From Natronomonas halophila (GTDB lineage: Archaea > Halobacteriota > Halobacteria > Halobacteriales > Haloarculaceae), in the NCBI RefSeq assembly GCF_013391085.1, contig NZ_CP058334.1, positions 744,001-808,000 on the forward strand: DNA of 64,000 nucleotides. Reading direction: 5' to 3'. The position numbers and the translations under genes were made by a program. Every line of letters starts with the position of its first letter. The stretch's first letter is position 1. Of the stretch, positions 49,560 through 63,905 are shown in pieces. A model generated the notes under the pieces. It was given only the letters and a program-made list of their open reading frames with translations. It did no database searches and was not told the DNA's origin.

Positions 49560-51890
49560 CTACAACTCCGGCATCGTCATGTGGAACGACTCGTCGCGGG
49601 ACTCCACCAGACAGAGGTGGAAGCCCTTGTTGCGCGAGAGTTTCACGAAGTTGCGGTATTTCTCCCGGCTGAGGAGGCTCCCGCTCGTCGCCTCGCGGGC
49701 GGCCTCCAGCGCGTCCGGTTCGAAGTAACTCGACGTGACCGCGAAGGCGCCGGCAAATCGGTCGGCGTCCATCCCGATGTCGGATGCGTCGTCGATGAGC
49801 GGCTCCAGCGAATCGGCATGGGTGGGGTCGCGGCTCTCGTCCATGTTGGCGACGACGAGCGGGTCGCCCATCCGGTCGCGCGCGACGACGTCGAACTCGA
49901 TGTCCCGGCCTTCTTCGTCCTCGCCCACGGCAACCGTATCGTCGAAGCTTATGCGGTCGATTTCCGGCAGCGCGTCGTAGAGCGGCCGCATCACGCTCTC
50001 CGAACGCGTCGACTGAATCTCGAACAGGAGGGAAGTGAGCAACCACTCCGCGAAGGCATAGCGCGGCGACGACGTGAGGAACGCATCGAACGGTTCGCCG
50101 TCGACGGTTGCGCCTTCGTCTTCGAACTGGGTGTGGTACTCGATACGGAGATTCTCGTCCAGTTCGTCCGCGTCGACGTTGCCTGCGTGTGCGTCCTCCA
50201 GCGTCGGGCCACCGGGTCCCTCATCGCGGACGAAGAGGCTCGTCCCCGCGAGCGCGCGGTCCGGCGTCAGGCTGACGCCGCTTGCGCCTGCCCCCGCGCC
50301 GCCAGCCGATTCTTCGGCGGCTTCGAGCGTTTCGACCCGCTCCTGTAGTCGGTCGCGCTCTGCTCGCAAGGCGTCCAGTTCCGACCGCAGGGAATCCAGT
50401 TCCGCCTCGTATTCCTGCCGAACCTCCATGATGCGGTCCTGAACCTCGTCCTCCGGGACCGTCTCCTCAGCCGATTCGGCATCCGGGGGCGCAGCCGCTT
50501 GTTCGGACGCCGGTTCCGATTCCGGTTCGGGTTCCGGCTCCGGCTCGGAGGTTGCCTGTGTCCGTTGGGTCTCCGCCGCCGACGTCGCCGCAGCAGCACC
50601 TCCGGCGGCCGTTTCACCGTCGCTGGTCTGCCCGCGACCGGTGTTCTCCGGGTCGATGGAGGGGACCGACCGCGCGGTGATACCGTCCATGACCGACCCG
50701 GTCGGGTCCGACGTCGAATCGCTGGTCGGAGGCTGTGACTCCGTCGAGTTCCACGAGGAGCCCGACGGCTCCCGCCCGTCCGATTCGGTGTCCGCCGCTG
50801 GCGTCGTCGACTCCTCGGTGTCAGTCGCCGTCTCCGTAGCCTGTGTCGATACCGGCTCCGTTTCGGGTTCGGTTGCCGCCGCGGCATCCGACGGGTCGTC
50901 GGGTTGCGGCGTCGCGGCCGACCCCGGGGACGCGTCGTCGTCCTCGCTATCGGTCTCGGTGTCGGCTGTGGGCGACGTCTCTGCCTCCGAGTCGGCCGTC
51001 GGTTCTGCCGTCGGTGCCGGTTCGGCCGGCGATTCCGGCCCCGTTTCCGGTTCGACGGCGGGGTCGGATTCTGCCTCTCCTGTCGGTTCGGCTGCGGGTT
51101 CCGACTCCGACTCGGGTGCCGGCTCCGAGGCCGGCTCCGAATCCGCTTCGGGTTCCGAAACCGAAGCCGTAGTCTCCGATTGAGCCTCGGCATCGGACTC
51201 GGGGGCGGGTTCGCTTTCCGGTTCGGGACCAGAGTCAGCTACCGGCGTTGGTTCAGTCGTCGATTCCGGCTCCGACTCAGGTTCGGTGTCCGAGACCACG
51301 CCCGCAGCGGCCGTCCCGGCATCCGGTTCGGATGGCTCCGGAATCTCGACGTCGGGCAAGGAGACGGCAACGACGTCGTAGATGCCGATTTCACCCTCGG
51401 CTTTCTGCTGGGCCTCCTCGTCGGTAATCAGCCGCCCGCTGGCGCTGATGTAGCCGATGTAGTCCTCGTCGCCGTCCTCGTAGACGACGAAGTAATCGCC
51501 GCTGAGAACGTTCTCCGAGAGTTCGATATAGCCCGTGAACCCGCCGCCCGAAAGCGTCTCGTGGACTCTCGATATCGGCGTGTCGTCGCTGAAATACCGA
51601 CCCCGAACCTCGCCATCGAGAGCGAGCATCGCGGCCAGCGACGCCGTCGCCGGCGCCGACGCTTCGTGAAGTCGGCCGGCAGCGTCCTCGAAGACGTCGA
51701 TGCGTCCCTCCCGGGGATCTTCCTCGAAGTTCGAGACGACCGCCAGCGGTTCCCCCTCACGGAGGAATAACCGGCTGTCGCCGACCTCAACGGCGCCGCT
51801 GAACCGCCGCGACTGCAGGTCGCGGAGGCCGTCGAACCCGCCGTCGAAGGGCGAAACCTCCCACTCCTCAATTACGGTGTGGGCATCCAT
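49560..51890 (-). CDS. Large low-complexity protein with coiled coil and C-terminal nuclease-like domain
   Basis: 776 aa. Residues 1-170 form a globular domain (FSGAVEVGDSRLFLREGEPL, FTGYIELSENVLSGDYFVVY) seen in some signalling proteins. Residues ~180-480 are an extreme Glu/Ser/Pro/Thr linker. Residues ~490-535 form a coiled coil (YEAELDSLRSELDALRAERD). The C-terminal ~230 residues are folded and include RDIEFDVVARDRMGDPLVVA, reminiscent of a PD-(D/E)xK core, though the ExK part is not obvious. Haloarchaeal, function unknown (DUF7527-like). Confidence 0.65.
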   Translation of the reverse strand: MDAHTVIEEWEVSPFDGGFDGLRDLQSRRFSGAVEVGDSRLFLREGEPLAVVSNFEEDPREGRIDVFEDAAGRLHEASAPATASLAAMLALDGEVRGRYFSDDTPISRVHETLSGGGFTGYIELSENVLSGDYFVVYEDGDEDYIGYISASGRLITDEEAQQKAEGEIGIYDVVAVSLPDVEIPEPSEPDAGTAAAGVVSDTEPESEPESTTEPTPVADSGPEPESEPAPESDAEAQSETTASVSEPEADSEPASEPAPESESEPAAEPTGEAESDPAVEPETGPESPAEPAPTAEPTADSEAETSPTADTETDSEDDDASPGSAATPQPDDPSDAAAATEPETEPVSTQATETATDTEESTTPAADTESDGREPSGSSWNSTESQPPTSDSTSDPTGSVMDGITARSVPSIDPENTGRGQTSDGETAAGGAAAATSAAETQRTQATSEPEPEPEPESEPASEQAAAPPDAESAEETVPEDEVQDRIMEVRQEYEAELDSLRSELDALRAERDRLQERVETLEAAEESAGGAGAGASGVSLTPDRALAGTSLFVRDEGPGGPTLEDAHAGNVDADELDENLRIEYHTQFEDEGATVDGEPFDAFLTSSPRYAFAEWLLTSLLFEIQSTRSESVMRPLYDALPEIDRISFDDTVAVGEDEEGRDIEFDVVARDRMGDPLVVANMDESRDPTHADSLEPLIDDASDIGMDADRFAGAFAVTSSYFEPDALEAAREATSGSLLSREKYRNFVKLSRNKGFHLCLVESRDESFHMTMPEL

Positions 51891-51935
51891 ACACGCCGAA
51901 AGCCACAGGACGGGTATATAGGCTTCGCCCCAACC

Positions 51936-51990
51936 TTTTTTAGCGGGGGCATCGGCGGCGCGAAGCGCCGCCTCAACCCCCGCTAAAAAA
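51936..51990. repeat. Long perfect inverted repeat (hairpin of R3)
   Basis: TTTTTTAGCGGGGG (51936-51949) pairs with CCCCCGCTAAAAAA (51977-51990), 14 bp without mismatch. An inner 8-bp stem GGCGGCGC/GCGCCGCC closes on a GAA loop. It could extrude as a cruciform or terminate transcription. Confidence 0.75.
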
Positions 51991-52090
51991 CGTTGATGAA
52001 AAAAGGCCGGACGCTCACTCCGTTCGCGTCCGGGGAACCGCGCTCGCTTCGCTCGCGCGGATGCTACCTGACTATTGCTGTTTTATTCGT
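51936..52090 (+). repeat. R3, diverged relative of the stop-codon repeat
   Basis: Same order of elements as R2: T-rich arm, hairpins, A-rich arm, an A-run, a CTCGCTTCGCTCG hairpin, GGATGCTA and a TTTTAT tail. Only short words are identical to R2, so the relation is weaker. It lies tail-to-tail with R1. Confidence 0.4.
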
Positions 52091-52130: not shown

Positions 52131-52338
52131 TGAATTCAAAGTCAAGAGTGCATCCGCCGAGGGGGCGTCCGGAGGTCGCCCCCGAGGCGGTTCCCGGCGC
52201 CGACCGCAGGGAGGCGCCGTAGCGACGAGCGACTACCGCGCCGCGAAGCGGCGCGACAGGAGCGAGTCGCGCATATTTTCACCATGTTTTTGCCCGACTG
52301 AGCGCGCCGCAGGCGCGCGAAGGAGGTGCAAAAAGTGG
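52131..52338 (-). repeat. R1, modular repeat directly after a stop codon
   Basis: Read on the minus strand. Box A CCACTTTTTGCAC (52338-52326) begins right after the TAA of the winged-helix gene. Box B, 34 nt (52294-52261), starts GGCAAAAACATGG. Box C, 22 nt (52171-52150), starts CGGACGCCCCCTCGG. Spacers of 31 and 89 nt are made of GC-rich palindromes. Boxes match R2 at 13/13, 33/34 and 21/22. Confidence 0.8.
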
Positions 52339-52686
52339 TTATTGATAGGCGAGATTCATCACCCAGTGCGAGAAGGCGTCGCTCTGGGGGTCGATTTCCT
52401 CGTCGCCGACGAACGGCGAGAGCATATCGCCGGCCATCAGGAGGGAGAAATCGAGGTCCTTCGGGTCGCGAACGGGGGTGATGTAGTAGGTGTTGTGACC
52501 CTCGTAGACGGTTTCCTCCCGGTCGACGAGGCCCATGTCGGCCAGTTTGTCGATGATGCGGCTCCCCTTCCGGGAATCGACGTCCAGTTCCTTCCAGAAA
52601 TCGCTCTGATGAATACCGCCGCTCTCGCGAATCAGTTCGAGGCCTTCGCGTTCGGTCTCCGAGAGGTCCTCCTCAGAAGCGCTCAT
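52339..52686 (-). CDS. Winged-helix regulator (MarR/Lrp-like)
   Basis: 115 aa. The winged helix spans about residues 10-75 (ETEREGLELIRESGGIHQSD, FWKELDVDSRKGSRIIDKLA, DMGLVDREETVYEG). The C-terminus carries a small dimerisation or ligand region (FSLLMAGDMLSPFVGDEE). The type is common among archaeal MarR/Lrp-like regulators. Repeat R1 starts immediately after its stop. Confidence 0.75.
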   Translation of the reverse strand: MSASEEDLSETEREGLELIRESGGIHQSDFWKELDVDSRKGSRIIDKLADMGLVDREETVYEGHNTYYITPVRDPKDLDFSLLMAGDMLSPFVGDEEIDPQSDAFSHWVMNLAYQ

Positions 52687-52712
52687 TGTGTATACGTGGG
52701 CCTGCGAGCCTT

Positions 52713-53459
52713 TTAAAGCCTCTCTTCGACAGCCTCGTAGGGAGTCTCGCAGGGCGGGCCGTCGGCAAAGGCGAAATGCTGCTCGTCGCCGAGGCGGACG
52801 AGCGACGACGAGCGGGTGCCAAAGCCGTCGCGGTGGACGCAGACGCCGTAGTCGTGGTCACCGAGATACTCGCTTGCGCGGGCGGTCCAGTCGGCGGCCG
52901 TCTCGCCGTCACGTGGCTGGAGGTCGGTCTGGAGGCGCTCGGCGTTGGCGGCCTGCTGCTTGCCGACGTCGGGGCGTGCCGAGGGGACGAACCACTCGTC
53001 GGCAGTGCCCACGTTGACGATGACATGAATGCCGGGGGCGAAGGACTCGGTAACGTAGCCGCCGCCGGTTTCGTCGCCACGGTTCGCGACGAACAGGCAG
53101 TCCTCGCTGTCGGCAAGCAAGAAATGGAAGGGCGCGTATTCGCGTTCGTCGAGTTCCGCCTCGACCCGGGCGAGGGCGTCGTCAGCGGTCGGTTCCGCGA
53201 GGGCGTCGTTTACCAGCAAGCCGCGGGAACGGTCGCCCTCGCCGGCCTCCCAGCGGTTAGTGACGGCCGCGAAGACGCCGTGTTCGTTGTAGCCGATCCA
53301 CGTCCCGCCGGCCCGCTCGTCGCGGGGTGCGAGCACGCGGGGCGGCCCCTCACGGACCGTCGGCGGCGTGGCTGGTCGGTCGAACGCCTCGTCGCGGTTC
53401 GCGGCGACACAGATCGGCGCATCATCGAAGACGCGCCATGCAACAGTGAGGGTGCACAC
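52713..53459 (-). CDS. NRDE/TANGO2-family protein
   Basis: 248 aa, GTG start MCTLTVAWRVFDDAPICVAA. The family signature NRDEAFDRPATPP follows, then GGTWIGYNEHGVFAAVTNRW, SRGLLVNDAL and YGVCVHRDGFGTRSSSLVRL. TANGO2 homologues are linked to heme and lipid homeostasis in eukaryotes. The archaeal role is unknown. An N-terminal nucleophile-like Cys2 is present. The downstream neighbour is the separate regulator gene. Confidence 0.85.
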   Translation of the reverse strand: MCTLTVAWRVFDDAPICVAANRDEAFDRPATPPTVREGPPRVLAPRDERAGGTWIGYNEHGVFAAVTNRWEAGEGDRSRGLLVNDALAEPTADDALARVEAELDEREYAPFHFLLADSEDCLFVANRGDETGGGYVTESFAPGIHVIVNVGTADEWFVPSARPDVGKQQAANAERLQTDLQPRDGETAADWTARASEYLGDHDYGVCVHRDGFGTRSSSLVRLGDEQHFAFADGPPCETPYEAVEERL

Positions 53460-53484
53460 GCCTCAGGCTAGGGCCGGCACCGGT

Positions 53485-54990
53485 TTAAATCTCGTCGGCA
53501 TGCCCGTCGGCTTCACGGAGTCGCGCCGTAACGGCCTCCCGGTCGACCGTGCCCGAGGCAGTGCGAGGCAACGCCTCGGCGAAGGCGATGGTTCGGGGGA
53601 GCTTGTAGCCCGCGAGTCGATCTCGGCAGTGGTCCCGAATTGCGTCGGCGGAGGTTTCGGCGCCGTCGACTGGGACGACCAGCGTGGCGACGCGCTCGCC
53701 CCACTCCTCGTCAGGGAGGCCAACGACCGCACAGTTCTCGATGGCTTCGTGGGCGCGAATCGCAGCAGCCACCTCGGACGGGTCGACGTTCTCCCCGCCG
53801 GTGATAATGGTGTCGTCAACCCGCGCGTGGACGTAGACCTGCCCCTCCTCGTCGCGATGGCCGAGGTCGCCCGTCCGGAGGCCGCCGTTAGTGAAGGCCT
53901 CGATAGTCGCCTCATCGTCCAGATAGCCGGGCGTGACCATCGGGCCGGTGACGACGAGTTCGCCCGTCTCGCCGGCCTCACAGATTGCGCCAGCCTCGTC
54001 GACGACGGTTAGCTCGGCGAACATAACGGGGTTGCCGACCGTCTCGGGGTTGCGCCGGGCCTGTTCGGGCGTCGCCGTCGCTATCTGGGAGGCGGCTTCG
54101 GTCATCCCGTAGGTCGGCGCGACCGGAACGTCCCGATTCTGGGCGCGCTCCAGCAGGTCCGGCGGGCAGGCGGCACCGCCCAGCAGGACGAACCGGAGGT
54201 CCGAAAGCGGGCCGGCGTCGACATCGGTATCGAGCAGTCGCTCCAGCATCGTCGGGACCAGCGAGACGGCGGTCGTGCCGGCCGCTTCCATCGCGGCCAG
54301 CGCCGCTCGGGGTTCGAAATCACGCTGAACGGATATCGTCGTCCCGTAGAGCGTCGACCGATAGACGGGCGCCAGTCCGCCCATGTGGTACATCGGCAGG
54401 CAGACGTGCCAGCAGTCGGTATCCCGGAGGCCGAGCCGGAACGCCGAGGCCGTCGCGCTCGCGAGGACGTTGCCCATCGTCAGGACGACGCCCTTCGGGT
54501 CGCCGGTCGTTCCCGAAGTGAACATGACGACGAGCGGATTGTCGAGTTCCCATTCGGGGAGGTCGAAGGGTTCCGGCTGGACGCTCGCCAGCGCCTCGGC
54601 GCTCCCTTCAGGCTCGTCGACCGACAGAACGTTTGCGTCGGTGGCCTCGGTGACGGCCGCCTCCGTGTCGGCCTCGCAGACGACGACTGTAGGATTCACG
54701 CGGTCGAAGCGAACCGACAGTTCGGCGGCCGACAGGCGGGCGTTGACCGGCACCAGCACGGCCCCGAGCCGCTGGGCCGCGTGGGCGAGTTCGACGAACT
54801 CCGCGCGGGTTTCGGCACAGACGACCAGCGCGTCGTCGACGCCGACGCCGCGTGCGGCGAGGCGGCCGGCGAGTACCTCGACCCGCTCGTCGAGGTCCGC
54901 GTACGTCTTGGCCCGGTCGACGTCGCCAGCGGCGGCTATCGCGGTTGCCGTCGGCGTCGCGCTCGCCCGGGTCGCCAGCCAGTCTCGCAT
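53485..54990 (-). CDS. menE: o-Succinylbenzoate-CoA ligase
   Basis: 501 aa. Activates o-succinylbenzoate with CoA for menaquinone synthesis. The AMP-binding signature MFTSGTTGDPKGVVLTMGN is clear. PTYGMTEAASQIATATPEQ, TGDLGHRDEEGQVYVHARVD and YKLPRTIAFAEALPRTASG (catalytic Lys region) are present. The start MRDWLATRAS follows menC by 16 bp, and co-location with menC and menA fixes its identity among acyl-CoA ligases. Confidence 0.88.
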   Translation of the reverse strand: MRDWLATRASATPTATAIAAAGDVDRAKTYADLDERVEVLAGRLAARGVGVDDALVVCAETRAEFVELAHAAQRLGAVLVPVNARLSAAELSVRFDRVNPTVVVCEADTEAAVTEATDANVLSVDEPEGSAEALASVQPEPFDLPEWELDNPLVVMFTSGTTGDPKGVVLTMGNVLASATASAFRLGLRDTDCWHVCLPMYHMGGLAPVYRSTLYGTTISVQRDFEPRAALAAMEAAGTTAVSLVPTMLERLLDTDVDAGPLSDLRFVLLGGAACPPDLLERAQNRDVPVAPTYGMTEAASQIATATPEQARRNPETVGNPVMFAELTVVDEAGAICEAGETGELVVTGPMVTPGYLDDEATIEAFTNGGLRTGDLGHRDEEGQVYVHARVDDTIITGGENVDPSEVAAAIRAHEAIENCAVVGLPDEEWGERVATLVVPVDGAETSADAIRDHCRDRLAGYKLPRTIAFAEALPRTASGTVDREAVTARLREADGHADEI

Positions 54991-55006
54991 CGTAGCGTAG
55001 CCTCTT

Positions 55007-56011
55007 TCACGAGGGGGGAATATTTCCTTTTCCTTGTGGAACGACGGCCGCCCCCGACCGTATCGGGGCGACGTTCTCCCGGATATCCTCGACGAGGAGG
55101 CTTCTCGTCGCCAATCCACAGGCACGAACCCGCGGGAGTGCAGCCGCGAGGTGGACCGCGGCAGCCCGGGCCACCGCGCCGTCGATGGTCGTCGTGACAA
55201 CGACATCGAGGCCCTCATCGAGAGCACGGCGAGCTACATCCGCAGCCCGGTCGATACCGCCCAGCGCCATCGGCTTACAGACCACGACGTCGGTGGCCCC
55301 CGCCTCCAGTACCGCATCGATACCGTGCTCGTGGAGTCCCTCGTCCAGGGCGATACCGACGGTACCACCGCTGAGAGCGGCATGGCCAGACAAATCGTCG
55401 GCTGGCAAGGGCTGTTCGACGAAGGCCACATCGAGGTCGGCGAAGGCCGACAGCGCACGCTCGGCGGTCTCGCGGTCCCACGCACCGTTGGCGTCGGCCC
55501 GGAGTTCGATATCCGGGCACCGCTGTCGGACGGCTTCGAGACGGTCGATATCCTCCGAGAGCGACCGCGAACCGACCTTGAGTTTCACTGCCGGATACCC
55601 TTCGGCGACGGCATCGGCGGCCGCCTCGGCAGTCGCCTTCGCGTCGTCGTCACCGACCGTCGCGTTGACCGGGACGCGTTCGATGCGGGAATCGGCGCCA
55701 AGGTAGCGATATAGCGGCACGTCAGCAGCGCGTGCGCGGGCATCGAGAGCGGCCAGCGAGACACCGTGTCGAGCGGCCGGTGTCCCATCGAGCCGGCCGC
55801 TATCGAGCGCGGCTTCCGGGTCCGCGACATCCCGGAGTGCGGCCTCGCAATCGTCGAGCGATTCCGTCCAGCCCGGAAGCGGCGTCGCCTCGCCGAGTCC
55901 CGGCGTGCCGTCGATATCGAGACGTACGAGGAAGCCCCGGCGCTCGTCGATAGTACCGGCGGCGGTCTCCAGCGGCGTCGACAGCGACAGGGAAAAGGGG
56001 TCGATTCTCAT
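55007..56011 (-). CDS. menC: o-Succinylbenzoate synthase
   Basis: 334 aa, enolase-superfamily enzyme. Converts SHCHC to o-succinylbenzoate. The barrel residues are YPAVKLKVGSRSLSEDIDRL (Lys), ELRADANGAWD (Asp), FVEQPLPADD (Glu), IALDEGLHEHG (Asp) and VVCKPMALGG (Lys), in the normal order. The start MRIDPFSLSL overlaps the menA stop by 4 bp, so coupled. menE follows. Confidence 0.88.
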   Translation of the reverse strand: MRIDPFSLSLSTPLETAAGTIDERRGFLVRLDIDGTPGLGEATPLPGWTESLDDCEAALRDVADPEAALDSGRLDGTPAARHGVSLAALDARARAADVPLYRYLGADSRIERVPVNATVGDDDAKATAEAAADAVAEGYPAVKLKVGSRSLSEDIDRLEAVRQRCPDIELRADANGAWDRETAERALSAFADLDVAFVEQPLPADDLSGHAALSGGTVGIALDEGLHEHGIDAVLEAGATDVVVCKPMALGGIDRAADVARRALDEGLDVVVTTTIDGAVARAAAVHLAAALPRVRACGLATRSLLVEDIRENVAPIRSGAAVVPQGKGNIPPS

Positions 56012-56958
56012 ACGAGCGTCGGGAAGGCGAACCCGATGGCAAAGAGCAGCGAGTGGGCAAAGAGGAGCTTCCCGGTCTGCTCCAAGGCGGGATTCAGCGC
56101 CGCACCCTCGGTGTGGGTCCAGACCGTGTGGCCGAGACGAGCGGCGAGCGGCGCGGTCAAAAGCGGCAGCAGGACGGCGGGCGTGTAACCGTCCGCCCAG
56201 AAGACGACCGGGACGACGTAGGCCATCCCGACCATTGCGGTCCACTCGATGCGACTGAGACGATAGCCGAGCATGACCGCCAGCGTCCGTTTGCCGGCGG
56301 CGGCGTCGGTCTCCTTATCTCGGATGTTGTTTACGACGAGGATGGCCGTCGAGAGGCCGGCCACGGGCAGCGCGGCGACGACGGCGGCGACGGGGAGCGT
56401 TTCAGGCGGGACCGAGAGCGGAAGCGGGTCGGCAACGTAGGTGACCGCCTGTACGTAATAGGTGCCAGCGACGGCGACGAGGCCGAAGAAGACGAAGACG
56501 AAGACGTCTCCGAGGCCGCGGTAGCCGTAGGGCAGCGGCCCGCCCGTGTAGGTGATACCGGCGACGACGCTGGCGAGGCCGATGACGACGATTGGGAGGC
56601 CGCCGATATAGACGAGATAGACCCCGATAACGATAGCGAGGCCGAAGGTCGCGTACATCGCCGCCTTGACGCGACCGGGGTCGATGATTCCGCCGGCCGT
56701 CACGCGGGTAAAGCCCTCCCGGTCCTCCGTGTCGGCGCCGCGGACGGCGTCGTAGTAGTCGTTGGCGAAGTTGGTCCCGATTTGCAGCAGGAGCGCGCCG
56801 ACGAGCGCGAAGACGGCGGGCAGCGGTGCGAAAACGCCTTCGTGAATCGCCAGGCCGGTCCCGACGATGACGGGCGCGGCGCCAGCCGGGAGCGTCTGGG
56901 GCCGTGCCGCCATCAGCCACGCCTTCACCGGAGAAACCGCCTCGGTCGTTTCGGTCAT
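56008..56958 (-). CDS. menA: 1,4-Dihydroxy-2-naphthoate prenyltransferase
   Basis: 316 aa, UbiA-family membrane enzyme with about nine helices. Attaches the isoprenoid tail to naphthoate. The two Asp-rich Mg sites are NFANDYYDAVRGADTEDREG and NNIRDKETDAAAGKRTLAVM. The start MTETTEAVSPVKAWLMAARP is chosen over an upstream ATG. First gene of the menA-menC-menE block. Confidence 0.92.
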   Translation of the reverse strand: MTETTEAVSPVKAWLMAARPQTLPAGAAPVIVGTGLAIHEGVFAPLPAVFALVGALLLQIGTNFANDYYDAVRGADTEDREGFTRVTAGGIIDPGRVKAAMYATFGLAIVIGVYLVYIGGLPIVVIGLASVVAGITYTGGPLPYGYRGLGDVFVFVFFGLVAVAGTYYVQAVTYVADPLPLSVPPETLPVAAVVAALPVAGLSTAILVVNNIRDKETDAAAGKRTLAVMLGYRLSRIEWTAMVGMAYVVPVVFWADGYTPAVLLPLLTAPLAARLGHTVWTHTEGAALNPALEQTGKLLFAHSLLFAIGFAFPTLV

Positions 56959-57229
56959 GGATACCTGATTGTCGATACTCGGGCCGGACGCAGTATAAGG
57001 CCCGGTGGTCCGCCCTGACGTTTCGTCCATCAGTCGGGAGACGTTTTCGTGGGACGTTCCGCAGTCGGATGTCGGCCGCCACTACTGCGATTCCTCGCAG
57101 GCGGACGAGGAAACGATGGAATACCTCGAAGGAGACGCTCTCGGCCGGGAAGTGCGGCCGCTGTCGGCGGTGGCGTCGAAAGGGAGGAATGGGATACGAG
57201 GGTGCCTACGGGAGGACGGGGACTGCGAC

Positions 57230-57925
57230 TTAGGCGGAAGTCGCTTCGTCGGCGGCGTCCTCGACCTGACTTGCGACGTCGTCGGCAGCGTCCTGAACCT
57301 GCTCGGAGACGTCCTCGACCTGTTCGGTCACGTCTTCGACCTGTTCGGAGACGCTTTCGGCCTGCTCCTCGAACTGCTCGGAGATGGTGTCGAGCTGGTC
57401 TTCGACCTGCTCCTGGAAGTCGTCGCCCTGCTCTTCGAGCTGTTCCTGAAGGTCCTCGATCTGCTCTTCGAGCTGTTCGAGGGCGTCGATAGTCTGGTCT
57501 TCGAGGTCCTCGTTGGCCTCGAGAAGCGCGTCGACCTGCTCGTCGAGCTGGTCGAGGAAGTCATCGAGGAACTCCTCGAGGGAGTCGTTGCCGTCACGGA
57601 GGTTCTCCTCGAGCGTGTCGAGGGCGTCCGTCTGGCTCTCTTCGAGCGTGTCGAGCTGCTCGTCGATGCTGTCGCGGAGGTCACCGAAAACGTCCTGTTC
57701 GGCGGGGACAGCAGATTCGACGGCGTCGAGGTAGCTGTCGACGGTCGTCCGCAGGAGGTCGTTGCCGCGGTCGGAGACGTCGCGGGCCGGGTCGATGGTG
57801 TCGAGGACCGTGGAGTTGACCTGCTTCTGGATTTCGACGCCGCGGGAGACGGCGTTGTGGGTCTGCTCGATGGTGTTACGCTGCAGTTCGAATACCGTTT
57901 CGACGGGGTTCGTGTTCTCGCTCAT
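57230..57925 (-). CDS. Acidic coiled-coil protein (phasin-like)
   Basis: 231 aa. The N-terminal ~75 residues (NPVETVFELQRNTIEQTHNA, VSRGVEIQKQVNSTVLDTID) look like the helical phasin motif of polyhydroxyalkanoate granule proteins. The remainder is a continuous heptad coiled coil rich in Glu and Gln (DALEQLEEQIEDLQEQLEEQ). A TATA box (AATTTATATGCC) ends ~25 bp upstream, so the leader is very short. It separates the two men blocks. The granule role is inferred. Confidence 0.6.
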   Translation of the reverse strand: MSENTNPVETVFELQRNTIEQTHNAVSRGVEIQKQVNSTVLDTIDPARDVSDRGNDLLRTTVDSYLDAVESAVPAEQDVFGDLRDSIDEQLDTLEESQTDALDTLEENLRDGNDSLEEFLDDFLDQLDEQVDALLEANEDLEDQTIDALEQLEEQIEDLQEQLEEQGDDFQEQVEDQLDTISEQFEEQAESVSEQVEDVTEQVEDVSEQVQDAADDVASQVEDAADEATSA

Positions 57926-58169
57926 CGTATTACCGATTAGTACCCCTTGGCATATAAATTTGACTCTAAAAACCACTCAGAACCATTGAGTTACATTGAG
58001 TGTCTCAGGAAAGTGGACCAATGGTTGGCGGGTGGAGGTCACCCGCCGGACAGCCCGACATGGTGTCGGCGCTGACAGGCGTCTCTACGGATTCCATCTC
58101 CGAAGGGGTACTGCCAGCAATTGCCGCCGGGTTTATGAGACAGATAGGAAGCAGACGGGCGTTCGCGCC

Positions 58170-59060
58170 TCAGTAATACCAATCGTACTTCTCGAAGTTC
58201 GGTTCGCGGTTCTCGTTGAACGCCTGCCGCCCCTCGCGGGCTTCATCAGTCATGTAGCCGAGACGCGTCGCCTCCCCCGCGAACACCTGCTGGCCGATGA
58301 GGCCGTCCGTATCCATGTTGAAGGCGTATTTGAGCATCCGGATCGCCATCGGCGACTTCGAGAGGATTTCGTCGGCCCACTCTAAGGCGACCTCCTCCAG
58401 TTCCTCGTGGGGGACCGCCTCGTTGGCCATCCCCATATCGACGGCCTCCTCGGCGGAGTAGGTCTTTCCGAGGAAGAACACCTCACGAGCCTTCTTCTGG
58501 CCGACCTGTTGGGCGAGATACGCCGACCCGAAGCCGGCGTCGAAGGAAGCGACGTCGGGGTCGGTCTGGAGGAACTTGGCGTTCTCCTCGGAGGCCAGCG
58601 TCATGTCACAGACGACGTGCAGCGAGTGACCACCGCCGACGGCCCACCCCGGCACGACGGCGATGACCGGCTTCGGAATGTGCCGAATCAGCCGCTGGAC
58701 TTCGAGGATGTGTAGTCTGGGGGCATCCTGCTGCTCAGCCTCGTTCTCATCGTCTTCATACTCGTAGCCCGCGTCCCCGCGAATCCGCTGGTCGCCGCCC
58801 GAACAAAACGCCCAGCCGTCGTCCTTCGGCGAGGGGCCGTTGCCCGTCAGGAGGACACAGCCGATGTCGGTCTGGCGCTTGGCGTGGTCCAGCGCCGTGT
58901 AGAGTTCGTCGACAGTCTCCGGGCGGAAGGCGTTCCGCACCTCCGGACGGTCGAAGGCGATTCGGACCGCGTTGACGTCCGTCCCGCGGTGGTAGGTGAT
59001 ATCCTCGAAATCGTCCGTAATCGGCTCCCAGCGGTCGGGGTCGAAGAGGTCTGAGACCAT
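58170..59060 (-). CDS. menB: 1,4-Dihydroxy-2-naphthoyl-CoA synthase
   Basis: 296-aa crotonase-fold enzyme. Cyclises o-succinylbenzoyl-CoA. VNAVRIAFDRPEVRNAFRPE, GWAFCSGGDQRIRG, VIAVVPGWAVGGGHSLHVVC, FDAGFGSAYLAQQVGQKKAR and the C-terminal FNENREPNFEKYDWYY are diagnostic of MenB. The Asp-rich insert near residue 100 is a halophilic variation. Last of the menF-menD-menB block. Confidence 0.94.
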   Translation of the reverse strand: MVSDLFDPDRWEPITDDFEDITYHRGTDVNAVRIAFDRPEVRNAFRPETVDELYTALDHAKRQTDIGCVLLTGNGPSPKDDGWAFCSGGDQRIRGDAGYEYEDDENEAEQQDAPRLHILEVQRLIRHIPKPVIAVVPGWAVGGGHSLHVVCDMTLASEENAKFLQTDPDVASFDAGFGSAYLAQQVGQKKAREVFFLGKTYSAEEAVDMGMANEAVPHEELEEVALEWADEILSKSPMAIRMLKYAFNMDTDGLIGQQVFAGEATRLGYMTDEAREGRQAFNENREPNFEKYDWYY

Positions 59061-59111
59061 ACCGGAACCGGGAGCGCCGACAGCAAAAACCCACCCGACT
59101 GCGGCCAGTCG

Positions 59112-60875
59112 TTAGGACAGTTCGGCGAGGACGCGCTCCTGGAGGGCCTGGCGTTCCTCGTGGCTCCGCTCGCTGTCGGTGACGACTTCGATGACCTGCG
59201 TACCCTCGCTGCCGACGGACTCGGTATACAGGTCGCGGAACCCCTCACGGTCCCTCGTGCGCGCGAACTCGATATCGTAGATGTCCGCGGACCCCTCGAA
59301 ATCCAGTCCGTGCGGCGTCCGGAACCACTCCTCGAAGGTGTCGTGGTCCTCGATTGGGAGCAGGCGGAAGATGCCGCCCCCATCGTTGTTGATACAGACA
59401 ATAGTTGCGTCGACGTCACAGCGCGAGACCGCCAGCAGGCCGTTCATGTCGTGGTAGTACGCGAGGTCTCCCAACACGGCTATCAGCGGGTCGTCAGTTC
59501 CGGACCCGGCACCAAGAGCGGTCGATACGATGCCGTCGATGCCCGACGCGCCGCGGTTTCCGAGGACGGTCAGATTCGCTTCACGCGGCCGGGCGAATCG
59601 GTCGAAATCCCGGACGGGCATCGAGTTCGAGACGAAAACCGTCGCCGGGTCCGGCGCCAGTTTTGCGATGTCAGCAAGCACAGCACCCTCCTCAGGTTCG
59701 TTCCCTTCGACCACACCCCAGTAGTCGGCTTCGGCCTCGCGGAAACGTTCGCTATAGGCGCCCGGTTCGCGGCCGACCGCACTCGCCAACTCCGTCGCCA
59801 GTCGCGTTTCGTCGGCCACCACGAGGTCCGTCGCCGTGAACGTCGCCTCGCGCCACCCGCCGGCCGGGTCGACGACGAACTGCCGGGCACCCGAGTCACG
59901 GAGGTACTGTCGCAGCGGTTTCGAGGTCGGTGAAGCGCCGAACCGGAGAACGACGTCCGGCGACTCCTCGATAGCGCCGATATACGAATCGTAGCCGCCG
60001 CAAATCGGCGTCTCGGCCATCCCCAGATGAGCGCCGAACCGCTGGCCCGAAAGCGGGTCCGCGAGTACCGGAAAGCCCGTCTCGCGTGCGAGGCCGAGCA
60101 GGGCATCGCGGGCCGGCGTCGGACGGTTGGCCGGTCCACAGACGATGAGTCCCGAGGTAGCGTCCTCGATTGCGTCGGCCATCGTTCGCCGGTCGGTCTT
60201 CGAGAGGCCAGCGCGGCCCTGCGTGACGTCGACGAACGGTCCGTCACGGCCCTCGATGGCGAGGGGATGCTCCGCGGCAAAATCGTCGGACACGGTCGCA
60301 TCGGGGACTGCCTCGGAGAGGTCCGCCGCGCGGGCGCCCGGTTCCAGCGGCTTTCGGAGCGGGACGTTCAGGTGGACCGGACCGGGTTCGGTGCCAGTCG
60401 CCGTTCCGACGGCCCGACAGAGCGTCGTCCGCAACGAGCGGAGTTTTCGGTCGGCAGCCTCGGGTTCGGGGAGCGTCCGATAGTCCCGAACCGCATCGCC
60501 GTAGATGTCGTGCTGGTCGATGGTCTGGTTGGCACCGCTGTCCTGCAGTTCGGGTGGCCGGTCGGCCGTCAACAGCAGCATCGGGACGCGGGCCTGATTG
60601 GCCTCGACGACGGCCGGATGGAAGTTTGCCAGCGCGGTTCCGGAGGTACAAATCAGGGGGACGGGGTCGCCGGTCCGTTTCGCTCGGCCAAGCGCAAAGA
60701 AGGCCGCCGACCGCTCGTCGAGCAGCGACAGCGCCTCGATATCGGGGTGTTCCGCGAAGGCGACCGTTAGCGGCGTCGACCGACTTCCGGGCGCAAGTAC
60801 GGCCGTCTCGATGCCCGCCTTCGCCAGTTCGCCCGCAATTATTTCGGCCCAGAGGCTGTTGACGTTCCGGGCCAT
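59112..60875 (-). CDS. menD: SEPHCHC synthase (MenD)
   Basis: 587-aa ThDP enzyme. Joins isochorismate and 2-oxoglutarate. MARNVNSLWAEIIAGELAKA, VLAPGSRSTPLTVAFAEHPD, LICTSGTALANFHPAVVEAN and LLTADRPPELQDSGANQTID are MenD-specific. The ThDP site is LGDLAYYHDMNGLLA, then CINNDGGGIFRLLP. Its ATG overlaps the menF stop as TAATG. The long upstream frame extension is not coding. Confidence 0.93.
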   Translation of the reverse strand: MARNVNSLWAEIIAGELAKAGIETAVLAPGSRSTPLTVAFAEHPDIEALSLLDERSAAFFALGRAKRTGDPVPLICTSGTALANFHPAVVEANQARVPMLLLTADRPPELQDSGANQTIDQHDIYGDAVRDYRTLPEPEAADRKLRSLRTTLCRAVGTATGTEPGPVHLNVPLRKPLEPGARAADLSEAVPDATVSDDFAAEHPLAIEGRDGPFVDVTQGRAGLSKTDRRTMADAIEDATSGLIVCGPANRPTPARDALLGLARETGFPVLADPLSGQRFGAHLGMAETPICGGYDSYIGAIEESPDVVLRFGASPTSKPLRQYLRDSGARQFVVDPAGGWREATFTATDLVVADETRLATELASAVGREPGAYSERFREAEADYWGVVEGNEPEEGAVLADIAKLAPDPATVFVSNSMPVRDFDRFARPREANLTVLGNRGASGIDGIVSTALGAGSGTDDPLIAVLGDLAYYHDMNGLLAVSRCDVDATIVCINNDGGGIFRLLPIEDHDTFEEWFRTPHGLDFEGSADIYDIEFARTRDREGFRDLYTESVGSEGTQVIEVVTDSERSHEERQALQERVLAELS

Positions 60876-62212
60876 TACTCCAGTTCGTCCAGAATCGGCC
60901 GATATTTCAACTGTACCTCGTCCCACTCGCGGTCCGGGTCCGAATCCGCGACGATGCCGACGCCCGCAAACAGTGTCGCCATGTCGCCGCGGGCAACCGC
61001 CGAACGAATGGCGACCGAAAACGAGCCGTAGCCTGCGGCGTCGAACCAGCCGACGGGGGCGGCATACCAGCCGCGCTCGAAGGGTTCGGTATCCCGAATC
61101 GTCCGCAGCGCCTCGTTCGGGGGGAGGCCGCCGACGGCGGGCGTCGGATGCAGCGCCTCCACCAGCGTCAGAACGTGTTCGTCGTCCGCCAGTTCGGCCG
61201 TAATCGGCGTCTCGATGTGCTGGACCGTCGCCAAGCGCCGGATGCGGCGCTGGCCGGTCTGGATGGCCGCGGCGTAGGGGTCCAACTGCTCGCGGATGGC
61301 GTCGGCGACCAGTTCGTGTTCGTGGACGTTCTTGTCGTCGGCCAGCAGTTCCTCGGCGAGCCACTCGTCTTCCTCGGGAGTGTCACCACGGCCAGTCGTC
61401 CCCGCGAGCGCGCCGGTCTCGACCGTCCGACCGCGGAGGCCGACCAACTGCTCGGGCGTCGCACCGAAGAAGCCGGCACTCCCGTCGTCGGGTTCGAAAA
61501 GGAATCGGAAACAATCCGGGTAGGTGTCGCCGAGTCGGGCCAGCACGTCCGGCAGCGAGAGCGGTCGTTCCAGCGACGCCTCCAGCGCCTGTGCGAGGAC
61601 GACCTTCCGGAGTTCGCCGGCCTCGATGCGGTCAGTCGCCGCGGTGACACTCTCGCGCCATTCGCCCTTCGAGGTGGTCCGCTCGCGGGCGCGAACCCCC
61701 GGCGGGTCGGTGCCCTCGCCGGCCGGTGGGAGCGAGGCGAGGTCCTCCTCGGCGGCCTCGAGTCGCTGCTCGACGGCGTCGGGGTCGGCATCGACCGCGT
61801 TGACGGTGAGCCACGCGCCGTCGTCGGTGTAGGTGAGTTGGATGCGCGGCAGGACGAACCCCGCGCCCGGGTAGCCCGCCCACGGGTCGTCGCCGGTGTG
61901 TTCGTCGTGAAACGCGAAGCCGCCGAAAAACCGAGGGCGGGCCGCGAGCGCGCCAGCGTGGACGTCCCCGACGGCGAACAGGTCAGCGGCCGATTCCCGG
62001 ACGGCCCGAAAACGGTCGGGGCCGTCGGCGGTTATCGTCGCCGCCGTTCCGCTGCCGACGACCGTCGCCTCGTCGGGCGCCGCCCAGAAGGTCCGGGGGG
62101 CGTCCGCCGCCGCAAGCGCCGCCTTCGGCTCTGGCGCCGCGGGCAGTCGCATCGACCGGCTGACGAGCCCCGCCGAGGACGGGGCGGCCTCCTCGCTCCG
62201 CAACGGTTCCAT
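60875..62212 (-). CDS. menF: Isochorismate synthase
   Basis: 445 aa, chorismate-binding enzyme that opens the menaquinone pathway. The C-terminal half holds RKVVLAQALEASLERPLSLP, FLFEPDDGSAGFFGATPEQL, EDEWLAEELLADDKNVHEHE, LVEALHPTPAVGGLPPNEAL and YAAPVGWFDAAGYGSFSVAI, all typical. The ATG at 62212 is preferred to GTG 62218. First gene of the menF-menD-menB block. Confidence 0.93.
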   Translation of the reverse strand: MEPLRSEEAAPSSAGLVSRSMRLPAAPEPKAALAAADAPRTFWAAPDEATVVGSGTAATITADGPDRFRAVRESAADLFAVGDVHAGALAARPRFFGGFAFHDEHTGDDPWAGYPGAGFVLPRIQLTYTDDGAWLTVNAVDADPDAVEQRLEAAEEDLASLPPAGEGTDPPGVRARERTTSKGEWRESVTAATDRIEAGELRKVVLAQALEASLERPLSLPDVLARLGDTYPDCFRFLFEPDDGSAGFFGATPEQLVGLRGRTVETGALAGTTGRGDTPEEDEWLAEELLADDKNVHEHELVADAIREQLDPYAAAIQTGQRRIRRLATVQHIETPITAELADDEHVLTLVEALHPTPAVGGLPPNEALRTIRDTEPFERGWYAAPVGWFDAAGYGSFSVAIRSAVARGDMATLFAGVGIVADSDPDREWDEVQLKYRPILDELE

Positions 62213-62279
62213 TACCACCGTCTTGGGACCCCACCGTTTTAGGTTACCCGTTCAGGGACGGCGCCATAGAAGAGCCGAC

Positions 62280-62558
62280 TTACAGTTTCGATTCCGCGTC
62301 GTCCGCGAGTTCCTGCATCCGCTTGCCGATACGGCCGGCATCCGAGAACTCGTCTTCGCTCATCACGTTCGCCAGGGCGTTTCCGAGGACGAACACCGCG
62401 TGTTTGTGTTCACTTTTGGACTTGTGAACGTCGTCCGGCGTCACGTCCAGACCTTCGTAGGCGTCGAAAATCGAGCTATCGACGCTGTCCATGTCCTGAA
62501 AGTGTTCCATAATCGACACCATCTTGGCGTGCAGCTCCAGAAGCTCGTCTTTGTGCAT
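62280..62558 (-). CDS. UPF0058-family protein
   Basis: 92 aa, start MHKDELLELHAKMVSIMEHF. Small all-helical archaeal family with HxxxH-like spacing (HVHKSKSEHKHAVFVLGNAL region). Structure predictions for the family are helical bundles. No function is established. Confidence 0.85.
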   Translation of the reverse strand: MHKDELLELHAKMVSIMEHFQDMDSVDSSIFDAYEGLDVTPDDVHKSKSEHKHAVFVLGNALANVMSEDEFSDAGRIGKRMQELADDAESKL

Positions 62559-62686
62559 ATTCGTGGGTACTGGAAGACGGCGTTTAACGCTTGCGCGGCA
62601 ACGCGGCACACACCAGCACGCGGATACCGAACTGTACGTACGAGTACAGCGCAGCCGCTAGACGGGCGACAAGCCGGAAAAACGGG

Positions 62687-62899
62687 TTAGAAGACGTACT
62701 CGTCGTCGTGGCCCATCATACCGTCTTCTTCGAGACCGGGGTCTTCGTCCTCCATCGGACCGCTCGTCTTGTAGGCTCGAAGACCGGTCGAGAGTAACTC
62801 TTCGATTGCTTCCTCCCGGTTTACGAATTCGCCCTTCTCTACGAGCTGGGCGATCTGCATCTCCAGATGCTCCGGGATAGTCAGGTGTACCTTCGGCAT
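62687..62899 (-). CDS. Ribbon-helix-helix (CopG-like) regulator
   Basis: 70 aa. The RHH core is MPKVHLTIPEHLEMQIAQLV, then KGEFVNREEAIEELLSTGLR. An acidic Met/Asp/Glu tail follows. Likely binds DNA as a dimer. It could be an antitoxin-like regulator, but no toxin gene is adjacent. Confidence 0.75.
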   Translation of the reverse strand: MPKVHLTIPEHLEMQIAQLVEKGEFVNREEAIEELLSTGLRAYKTSGPMEDEDPGLEEDGMMGHDDEYVF

Positions 62900-63076
62900 C
62901 GGAACGTTGGAAGCTTCGGGGATGGGGTATTTAACGTTGACGGGCTTTTTTTGCCGCGAGCAAATTCAACCCTCGGTGACCGAAAGTATCTTTTGTGAAC
63001 CGTTCACTCCCGTTGCCCGCGAGAGGTGCCAACCCCGAACGACAGGCCTACCTGTTTTCGACTCGAATCGCCGGCC

Positions 63077-63664
63077 ATGAAGGACGTTACGGACCTCCAC
63101 CGGGAGTTCGACGGCAAACGCCTCCCGCCCGGCCAGCGGGAAACCAGTCGCTTTCCCGTCCTCTCGAAGGGCGAGACGCCATCGGTGCCGACCGACTGGA
63201 CCTTCGACGTCTGGGGAGCCGTCGACGACGAACTCGCCCTCTCCTTCGCGGAGTTCAAAGACCTCCCCAGCGAAACACAGACGCAGGATTTCCACTGTGT
63301 AACCGGCTGGTCCCGCTTCGATTGTGAGTTCCGCGGCGTCACCTTCCCCACGCTCGCCGAGCACGCCGGGGTCACCGACGACGCCGTCCACGTCATGTTC
63401 CACGCCCACGACAGCTACACTACGAACCTCCCACTCGAAGACTGCATGCGCGAGGAGGTCCTCTTCACCTGGGAACTCGACGGCGAACCACTCCCCGCCG
63501 AACACGGCGGCCCCATGCGCGTCGTCACGCCACACAAATACGCCTACAAGGGCGCCAAGTGGGTCTCCGGCGTCGAGTTCCTCACCGAACCCGAACGCGG
63601 CTACTGGGAGAAGCGCGGGTATTCGAATACGGCGAATCCGTGGGAAGAACAGAGATACGCATAG
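63077..63664 (+). CDS. YuiH-like sulfite oxidase-family molybdopterin protein
   Basis: 195 aa. The molybdenum-ligand Cys lies in TQDFHCVTGWSRFDCEFRGV. YTTNLPLEDCMREEVLFTWE, LDGEPLPAEHGGPMRVVTPH and YAYKGAKWVSGVEFL match the stand-alone YuiH/MsrP-like branch, shorter than true sulfite oxidase because it lacks the dimer domain. No signal peptide. Repeat R2 begins immediately after its TAG. Confidence 0.85.
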   Translation: MKDVTDLHREFDGKRLPPGQRETSRFPVLSKGETPSVPTDWTFDVWGAVDDELALSFAEFKDLPSETQTQDFHCVTGWSRFDCEFRGVTFPTLAEHAGVTDDAVHVMFHAHDSYTTNLPLEDCMREEVLFTWELDGEPLPAEHGGPMRVVTPHKYAYKGAKWVSGVEFLTEPERGYWEKRGYSNTANPWEEQRYA

Positions 63665-63905
63665 CCACTTTTTGCACGCTCCGGCGGCCTGGCGCGCTAC
63701 GGCGCCAGACCCGCCTCCGCAGTCATCAGATTCCCGCGGGAATCTGATGGGCAATCAGACCGCTTCGCGGTCTGATGACGGCAAAAACATGGGGAAAATA
63801 TGCGCGACTCGCTTCGCTCGTCTTCCAACGCTCTCGTTCGCTGCGCTCACGAGACCTTCGGACGCCCCCTCGGAGGATGCTATCCCTATTGATTTTATAA
63901 TCAAG
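63665..63905 (+). repeat. R2, modular repeat directly after a stop codon
   Basis: Box A 63665-63677, box B 63780-63813, box C 63859-63880, almost identical to R1 but with spacers of 102 and 45 nt. The A-B spacer contains the perfect palindrome CAGATTCCCGCGGGAATCTG, a TCAGACCGC/GCGGTCTGA hairpin and a CTGGCGC/GCGCCAG hairpin. It ends in an AT-rich TTGATTTTATAATCAA inverted tail. Confidence 0.8.

Follow-up and report, generated by a model that had tools for sequence, protein, structure and literature searches.

Modular palindromic DNA elements at haloarchaeal gene ends as candidate bidirectional transcription terminators or insulators

What kind of element begins at the stop codon of a winged-helix gene in Natronomonas halophila and recurs, on the opposite strand, behind an unrelated gene? 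The first-pass annotation of the window (the whole stretch of 64,000 nucleotides that was analysed) described three boxes with palindromic spacers and suspected an undescribed family of 3′-UTR or mobile elements. Here, we describe the composition, the position and the turnover of the family, and consider what its members may do.

Elements in the window and size of the family

The first element, R1, lies at 52150-52338 on the minus strand. Its box A (CCACTTTTTGCAC, 52326-52338), which carries a T5 run and pairs with box B, directly follows the TAA codon (52339-52341) of the winged-helix gene (52339-52686, minus strand), as had been stated. Box A is followed by a 32-nt hairpin, P1 (52294-52325; type CTCCTTCG...CTCAGTCGG), box B (GCAAAAACATGGTGAAAATATGCG, 52270-52293), hairpin P2 (52223-52272), which overlaps the last GCG of box B, the linker CTAC (52219-52222), hairpin P3 (52196-52218) and the linker GGGAACC (52189-52195). 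Hairpin P4 and the terminal GGATGC (52150-52155) occupy 52150-52190. The extent first given for R1, 52131-52341, has to be corrected: positions 52131-52149 are flanking sequence.

The second element, R2 (63665-63880, plus strand), directly follows the TAG codon (63662-63664) of a sulfite-oxidase/MsrP-like gene (63026-63664, plus strand). Its box A (63665-63677) is identical to that of R1, and its P1 region contains a nested double hairpin, module X (approximately 63717-63779), which precedes box B (63781-63804). R1 and R2 differ at no position of box A, one of 33 positions of box B and one of 22 positions of box C; thus, they were correctly recognized as near-identical boxes on opposite strands behind unrelated genes, with palindromic spacers that are unlike in length and sequence. 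Box C (52150-52171 in R1, 63859-63880 in R2) is real in these two copies, but it is not a separate box of the family: it consists of the 3′ arm of P4 and a conserved GGATGC. An internal deletion, which probably extended into a nested double-hairpin module like that found in another copy (L099), has removed from R2 the 5′ arm of P4 together with hairpins P2 and P3. Both elements belong to subfamily 1.

A third element, R0 (51931-52067, plus strand), had been missed. It stands tail-to-tail with R1 and belongs to a sister group, subfamily 2, with the order CAACCTTTTTTAGC, P1, GCTAAAAAACGTTGATGAAAAA, P3, GGGGAACC, P4 and GGATGCT. R0 adjoins the promoter region of a gene at 49560-51890 (minus strand), and its P1 is also found upstream of the orthologue of this gene in another Natronomonas genome (G016).

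As the first-pass annotation had suggested, genomes were searched with the box pattern, and dozens of copies were found beyond R1 and R2. In the genome of N. halophila (G000; 3.21 Mb, one contig), box B with up to three mismatches occurs at 48 sites, and the reversed control pattern at none, which is far more than chance would give. Subfamily 2 (GCAAAAACNTYSATGAAAAA) adds approximately 42 sites, so that this genome holds about 90 copies of the family. Among 20 Natronomonas genomes, the number of box B copies ranges from 0 to approximately 49. A zero count for subfamily 1 does not mean that the family is absent, because subfamily 2 is present in 16 of the 20 genomes. The core GCAAAAACNTGGGGAAAA was found in 78 of 391 genomes of the class (21 of 86 genera), and the control matched in none of them. 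Relatives of the family exist in at least 78 of the 391 class genomes. In some other genomes, two or three copies stand in direct tandem approximately 140-160 nt apart (L266, L270 and L353).

The family is apparently undescribed, as had been supposed. A search of open-licence papers returned no description of an R1-type family, and plasmid records, phage records and IMG/VR contained no match to the element sequence. Rfam gave no gathering-level match in 12 loci; around R1, there were only sub-threshold chance matches.

Fixed linkers, exchangeable hairpins and position at gene ends

The elements are roughly 140-260 bp long. A full subfamily-1 copy has the order box A (CCACTTTTT(G/A)CAC), P1, box B (GCAAAAACNTGG(K)GAAAATATGCG), P2, CTAC, P3, GGGAACC or a close variant, P4 and GGATGC. 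The T5 run starts 4 nt into the element. Box A, with its T5 run, pairs with the first half of box B, which contains an A5 run and thus a T5 run on the other strand. The outer arms of the two boxes occur in nine distinct complementary combinations among the copies (for example, CCAC/GTGG, CGAA/TTCG, CGAC/GTCG and GAAC/GTTC). Therefore, the arms have undergone compensatory change.

Hairpins are exchanged wholesale while the linkers persist. In 158 parsed copies, 135 distinct P1 sequences were found. When arms were swapped between copies and folded, pairing was lost in P1 and P3; the effect was weaker in P2 and P4, the arms of which share motifs. Between close relatives, whole hairpins have been replaced and the boxes and remaining hairpins kept (L214/L225, L190/L143 and L131/L137). 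Furthermore, the module types are unlinked in G000: copies with the same P1 type share a P2 type at a frequency of 0.14, as compared with 0.16 on average.

Copies from several genera contain, within their hairpins, nested double-hairpin modules whose linkers are short and conserved: X in R2; Y in L121, L109, L136, L151, L184 and L268; Z in L297, L279 and L289; W in L099; and an insert of 62 nt in L192. These modules themselves resemble small mobile palindromes. In two copies (L087 and L106), the inner P2 hairpin was seen by eye to be reversed (GACTAACGC...GCGGCTGG) within an unchanged outer stem, which suggests hairpin inversion; a pattern scan for such inverted inner P2 hairpins picked up none, these two included.

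The distance to stop codons was tabulated, as had been proposed. Of the 49 copies with box A in G000, 42 have a reading frame that ends within 60 nt upstream, and the stop codon lies 0-6 nt before box A in 39 of the 42. In other genomes, an upstream frame was found for 92 of 105 copies, with the stop codon no more than 6 nt before box A in 84 of the 92. Thus, most copies start 0-6 nt past a stop codon. The stop codon is nevertheless not the true anchor: for about one in seven copies of G000, no frame ends in the 60 nt upstream, and tRNA-Ala(CGC) genes are followed by the element within approximately 3 nt in three genomes from two families (L154, L156 and L265). Because copies follow tRNA genes, the anchor is the end of a transcription unit. 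Many subfamily-2 copies have no upstream stop codon.

The neighbouring genes of the copies in G000 are in tandem in 20 cases and convergent in 18, which rules out placement at convergent genes only; the nearest upstream gene is on the opposite strand in 9 of about 49. In most copies, at least five T stand in a row on the non-template strand where the transcription unit has its 3′ end. In Haloferax volcanii, T5C is a terminator with an efficiency of 95% (PMC7237163). In the window, T5 within 20 nt of a stop codon was found for 2 of 56 open reading frames, namely those that precede R1 and R2. Box A is therefore not the ordinary terminator of every gene.

Conservation, turnover and an inversion

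The same gene end is occupied in at least two genomes in 24 orthologous groups, which include S19e, sucD (succinyl-CoA ligase), ETF, thermosome and glutamine synthetase. The copy at the thermosome end recurs in several genera; this gene was named from its GGM-rich C-terminus and not by a family search. At the S19e stop codon, subfamily 1 is present in G000, G004, G009 and G012, subfamily 2 in G002 and G016, and remnants in G003 and G011. Exchange between the two subfamilies was also seen at the ends of a PAPS-reductase-like gene and other genes.

Most orthologous gene ends, for example the R2 site, FttA and most S19e, are without an element, and Natronomonas species differ widely in copy number, with almost no copies in some and about 90 at most. 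R2 is present only in G000: the gene upstream of it was examined in 15 Natronomonas genomes in total, and in the other 14 the site is empty. At the R1 site of Natronomonas gomsonensis, the winged-helix orthologue is followed by a decayed remnant of box A (CCACTTTCTGCAC). An element stands at the 3′ end of the very gene that encodes the archaeal termination factor aCPSF1/FttA in G000 (L118) and in no other Natronomonas genome examined; a genome of another genus (G044, L281) apparently has one at the same gene end.

The neighbours of R1 and R2 are arranged differently in other Natronomonas genomes. The PfkB-like kinase gene that comes after R2 in G000 stands behind the winged-helix gene in N. 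gomsonensis and Natronomonas sp. CBA1123. Behind the sulfite-oxidase-like gene, G002, G003, G004, G007 and G016 have the orthologue of the gene located after R1 in G000. Because the downstream neighbours are swapped, an inversion of approximately 11.4 kb (52339-63664) relative to other Natronomonas has its breakpoints at the oppositely oriented R1 and R2. Most simply, this inversion arose by recombination between R1 and R2.

DNA-level structure and possible function

The stems contain few wobble pairs. Among single mismatches in P1, P3 and P4, we counted 19 G-T and 27 A-C, as compared with 3137 Watson-Crick pairs. In contrast, tRNA stems from the same loci contain 42 G-U, no A-C and 381 Watson-Crick pairs, a control in which ARAGORN favours G-U. 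Thus, G-U makes up less than 1% of the pairs in the element stems and 11% in the tRNA control. This low value has to be read with one caveat: if new palindromes often replace old ones, the count could fall while an RNA role would still be possible.

The loops and internal mismatches are polar with respect to the strand. On the gene strand, the ratio of TNC to GNA triloops is 68:0 in P2, 70:1 in P3 and 42:3 in P4 (180:4 in sum), and 48:13 in P1. The pairing register of the TTCG-like loops gives C(TNC)G triloops and leaves no room for C(UNCG)G, so UNCG RNA tetraloops were ruled out. Tandem TC/TC internal loops number 57 in P1, 70 in P2, 78 in P3 and 51 in P4 (256), and GA/GA is absent among the internal loops listed. 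Accordingly, the template strand carries C(GNA)G triloops and tandem GA/GA mismatches, both of which are unusually stable in DNA. DNA folding is more stable on the template strand for 86 of 96 P2, 75 of 83 P3 and 45 of 66 P4 hairpins; for P1, the template strand does not give the more stable DNA fold. Because the stems are nearly free of G-U and the loops and mismatches are strand-polar, these results suggest that the hairpins are structures of DNA rather than of RNA.

The promoter hairpins of the virion RNA polymerase of phage N4 share the template-strand triloop with a 5′ G, a 3′ A and a C-G closing pair (PMC4496689). In N4, extrusion of the hairpin from supercoiled DNA depends on these two loop bases and on the closing pair, and hairpins with such loops extrude at physiological supercoiling (PMC4496689). 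The N4 hairpins are single, they are promoters and their extrusion was shown experimentally, whereas the R1 family stands at gene ends and its extrusion is inferred.

Taking these observations together, we consider the chances about even that R1, R2 and R0 are haloarchaeal modular palindromic DNA elements that serve as bidirectional transcription terminators or insulators at the ends of transcription units, a function read from the sequence. RNA polymerase leaving a gene would terminate at the T run of box A, and polymerase arriving from the other side would terminate at the reverse-strand T runs of box B. The latter would suit copies that, like R0, adjoin the promoter of the following gene. 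More speculatively, supercoiling driven by transcription might cause the template-strand hairpins to extrude, and they would then form a roadblock or a torsional sink. The patterns observed show that hairpins are exchanged as cassettes between copies and that inverted copies, such as R1 and R2, turn round the chromosome segment between them, probably by recombination.

The position of T5, the occupancy of gene ends across genera, the replacement of one subfamily by the other, the covariation of boxes A and B, the DNA-level polarity, the unlinked modules and the inversion were all counted in favour of terminator function. Against it stand the variable copy number, the many empty orthologous ends, the opposite-strand upstream genes (9 of about 49), the subfamily-2 copies without an upstream stop codon and the P1 hairpins, which are not template-favoured. 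Moreover, since a bare T5 is enough for termination in Haloferax, the remaining 180 nt or so need another reason. The element shares the T5 on the non-template strand just past the coding region with archaeal T-tract terminators (intrinsic, U-tract/FttA-assisted). However, the ordinary T-tract terminators consist of a bare T run, sometimes with a preceding hairpin (PMC7237163), whereas here the T run opens a multi-hairpin element in about 90 copies.

A broader version of the proposal is offered with considerable doubt. In it, the family would represent a class of archaeal elements at gene ends that work through the secondary structure of their DNA. Template-strand hairpins in arrays, with GNA triloops as caps and sheared GA pairs for stiffness, would be extruded from supercoiled DNA past a T run, would end or insulate transcription in both directions, and would evolve by whole-hairpin swaps between conserved linkers.

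The main rival, which we regard as a serious possibility of less than even probability, is a selfish, non-autonomous palindromic repeat, comparable with REPs, PATEs, SMR-A or mitochondrial double-hairpin elements, that moves via single-stranded DNA with the help of a host or IS enzyme and prefers the ends of transcription units; terminator activity would then be incidental. The presence of R2 only in G000 and the strongly variable copy number point to gain and loss of copies, and decayed and deleted copies, modules X, Y, Z and W nested inside hairpins in several genera, and the one-strand polarity expected of a single-stranded substrate fit this explanation as well. In addition, Haloquadratum walsbyi has comparable transposase-free palindromic repeats (PMC3119063). 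However, neither a coding relative nor a target duplication was found, where for the latter there was no close empty site with alignable flanks to compare. A transposase of the Y1 type (IS200/IS605; RAYT) was rejected as the mobilizing enzyme since gene counts by PF01797 do not correlate with copy number across the genus (G009 has no gene and approximately 18 copies, G006 three genes and no copy). Between the sole Y1 gene of G000 and the closest of the listed copies lie more than 80 kb. Furthermore, parasite drift predicts neither occupancy conserved across species and genera nor subfamily replacement unless there is a strong hotspot. Thus, of the mobility first suspected, the gain and loss of copies and the exchange of hairpins are upheld; no transposase or target duplication supports it, and many sites are shared between species and genera.

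Known mobile and repeated elements resemble the family in part. REP/BIME sequences are likewise short extragenic palindromic repeats in dozens to hundreds of copies, and REP palindromes sometimes abut stop codons (PMC3733652). They have a conserved palindrome, whereas the R1 family has conserved linkers and hypervariable stems; its ends are CCACTTTTTGCAC and GGATGC, and no GTAG/CGTC tag was found there. Terminal inverted repeats of the MITE type were not found either: neither end is an inverted repeat of the other, and box A pairs with the internal box B. The PATEs of H. walsbyi resemble IS605 ends, and SMR-A of the same species is approximately 110 bp long, has highly similar copies and resides inside other mobile elements (PMC3119063). 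Both are, like the R1 family, haloarchaeal, transposase-free and palindrome-based, and SMR-A, like the nested modules of the R1 family, has palindromes as its insertion sites. In contrast to both, the R1 family has stems that differ in almost every copy and sites that are gene ends, and the main element shows neither the length of about 110 bp nor the near-identical copies and terminal inverted repeats of SMR-A. It is modules X, Y, Z and W that resemble SMR-A, a likeness at the level of description. The comparison with PATEs covered linked Y1 genes and plasmid and phage records, and gave no linked gene and no match. In the plasmid, phage and IMG/VR records searched, the boxes matched no insertion-sequence end. 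The same records yielded no viral, plasmid or phage carrier.

In the mitochondria of fungi and sponges, double-hairpin elements consist of two hairpins with a short linker and nest into one another. Modules X, Y, Z and W are like them, but belong to a different domain and genome and lie inside a larger ordered array with conserved linkers.

It is unlikely that the elements are sites of chromosome structure, such as a supercoil sink or a BIME-like site for gyrase or an SMC or nucleoid protein, which would owe their position at gene ends to transcription-driven supercoiling. The extrusion of N4 hairpins with similar loops (PMC4496689) and the copies at the ends of housekeeping genes are consistent with this idea, but it leaves the conserved T5/A5 bracket and the spacing of 0-6 nt unexplained, and with 20 of the 49 copies of G000 between tandem genes there is no special link to convergent ends.

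Least probable is a structured 3′-UTR RNA that is co-transcribed with the upstream gene and acts in stability, processing or regulation: the position past stop codons, the multi-hairpin architecture with conserved joining segments and the strong covariation would suit it, but G-U pairs are no commoner than A-C, RNA folding predictions favour the antisense strand in P2-P4, Rfam gave no gathering-level match in the 12 loci, and the T5 at the start of the element should end most transcripts ahead of the hairpins. The 3′-UTR part of the original suggestion is weakened accordingly.

The safest course is to file the R1 family among the extragenic palindromic repeats. To these it adds a form in which palindromes vary freely between conserved linkers and the loops and mismatches follow a strand-polar code that fits DNA hairpins. 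The family also accounts for at least one haloarchaeal inversion, the ends of which are marked by R1 and R2. If the terminator or insulator function proposed here is real, these elements would link chromosomal DNA structure to the ends of transcription in archaea.
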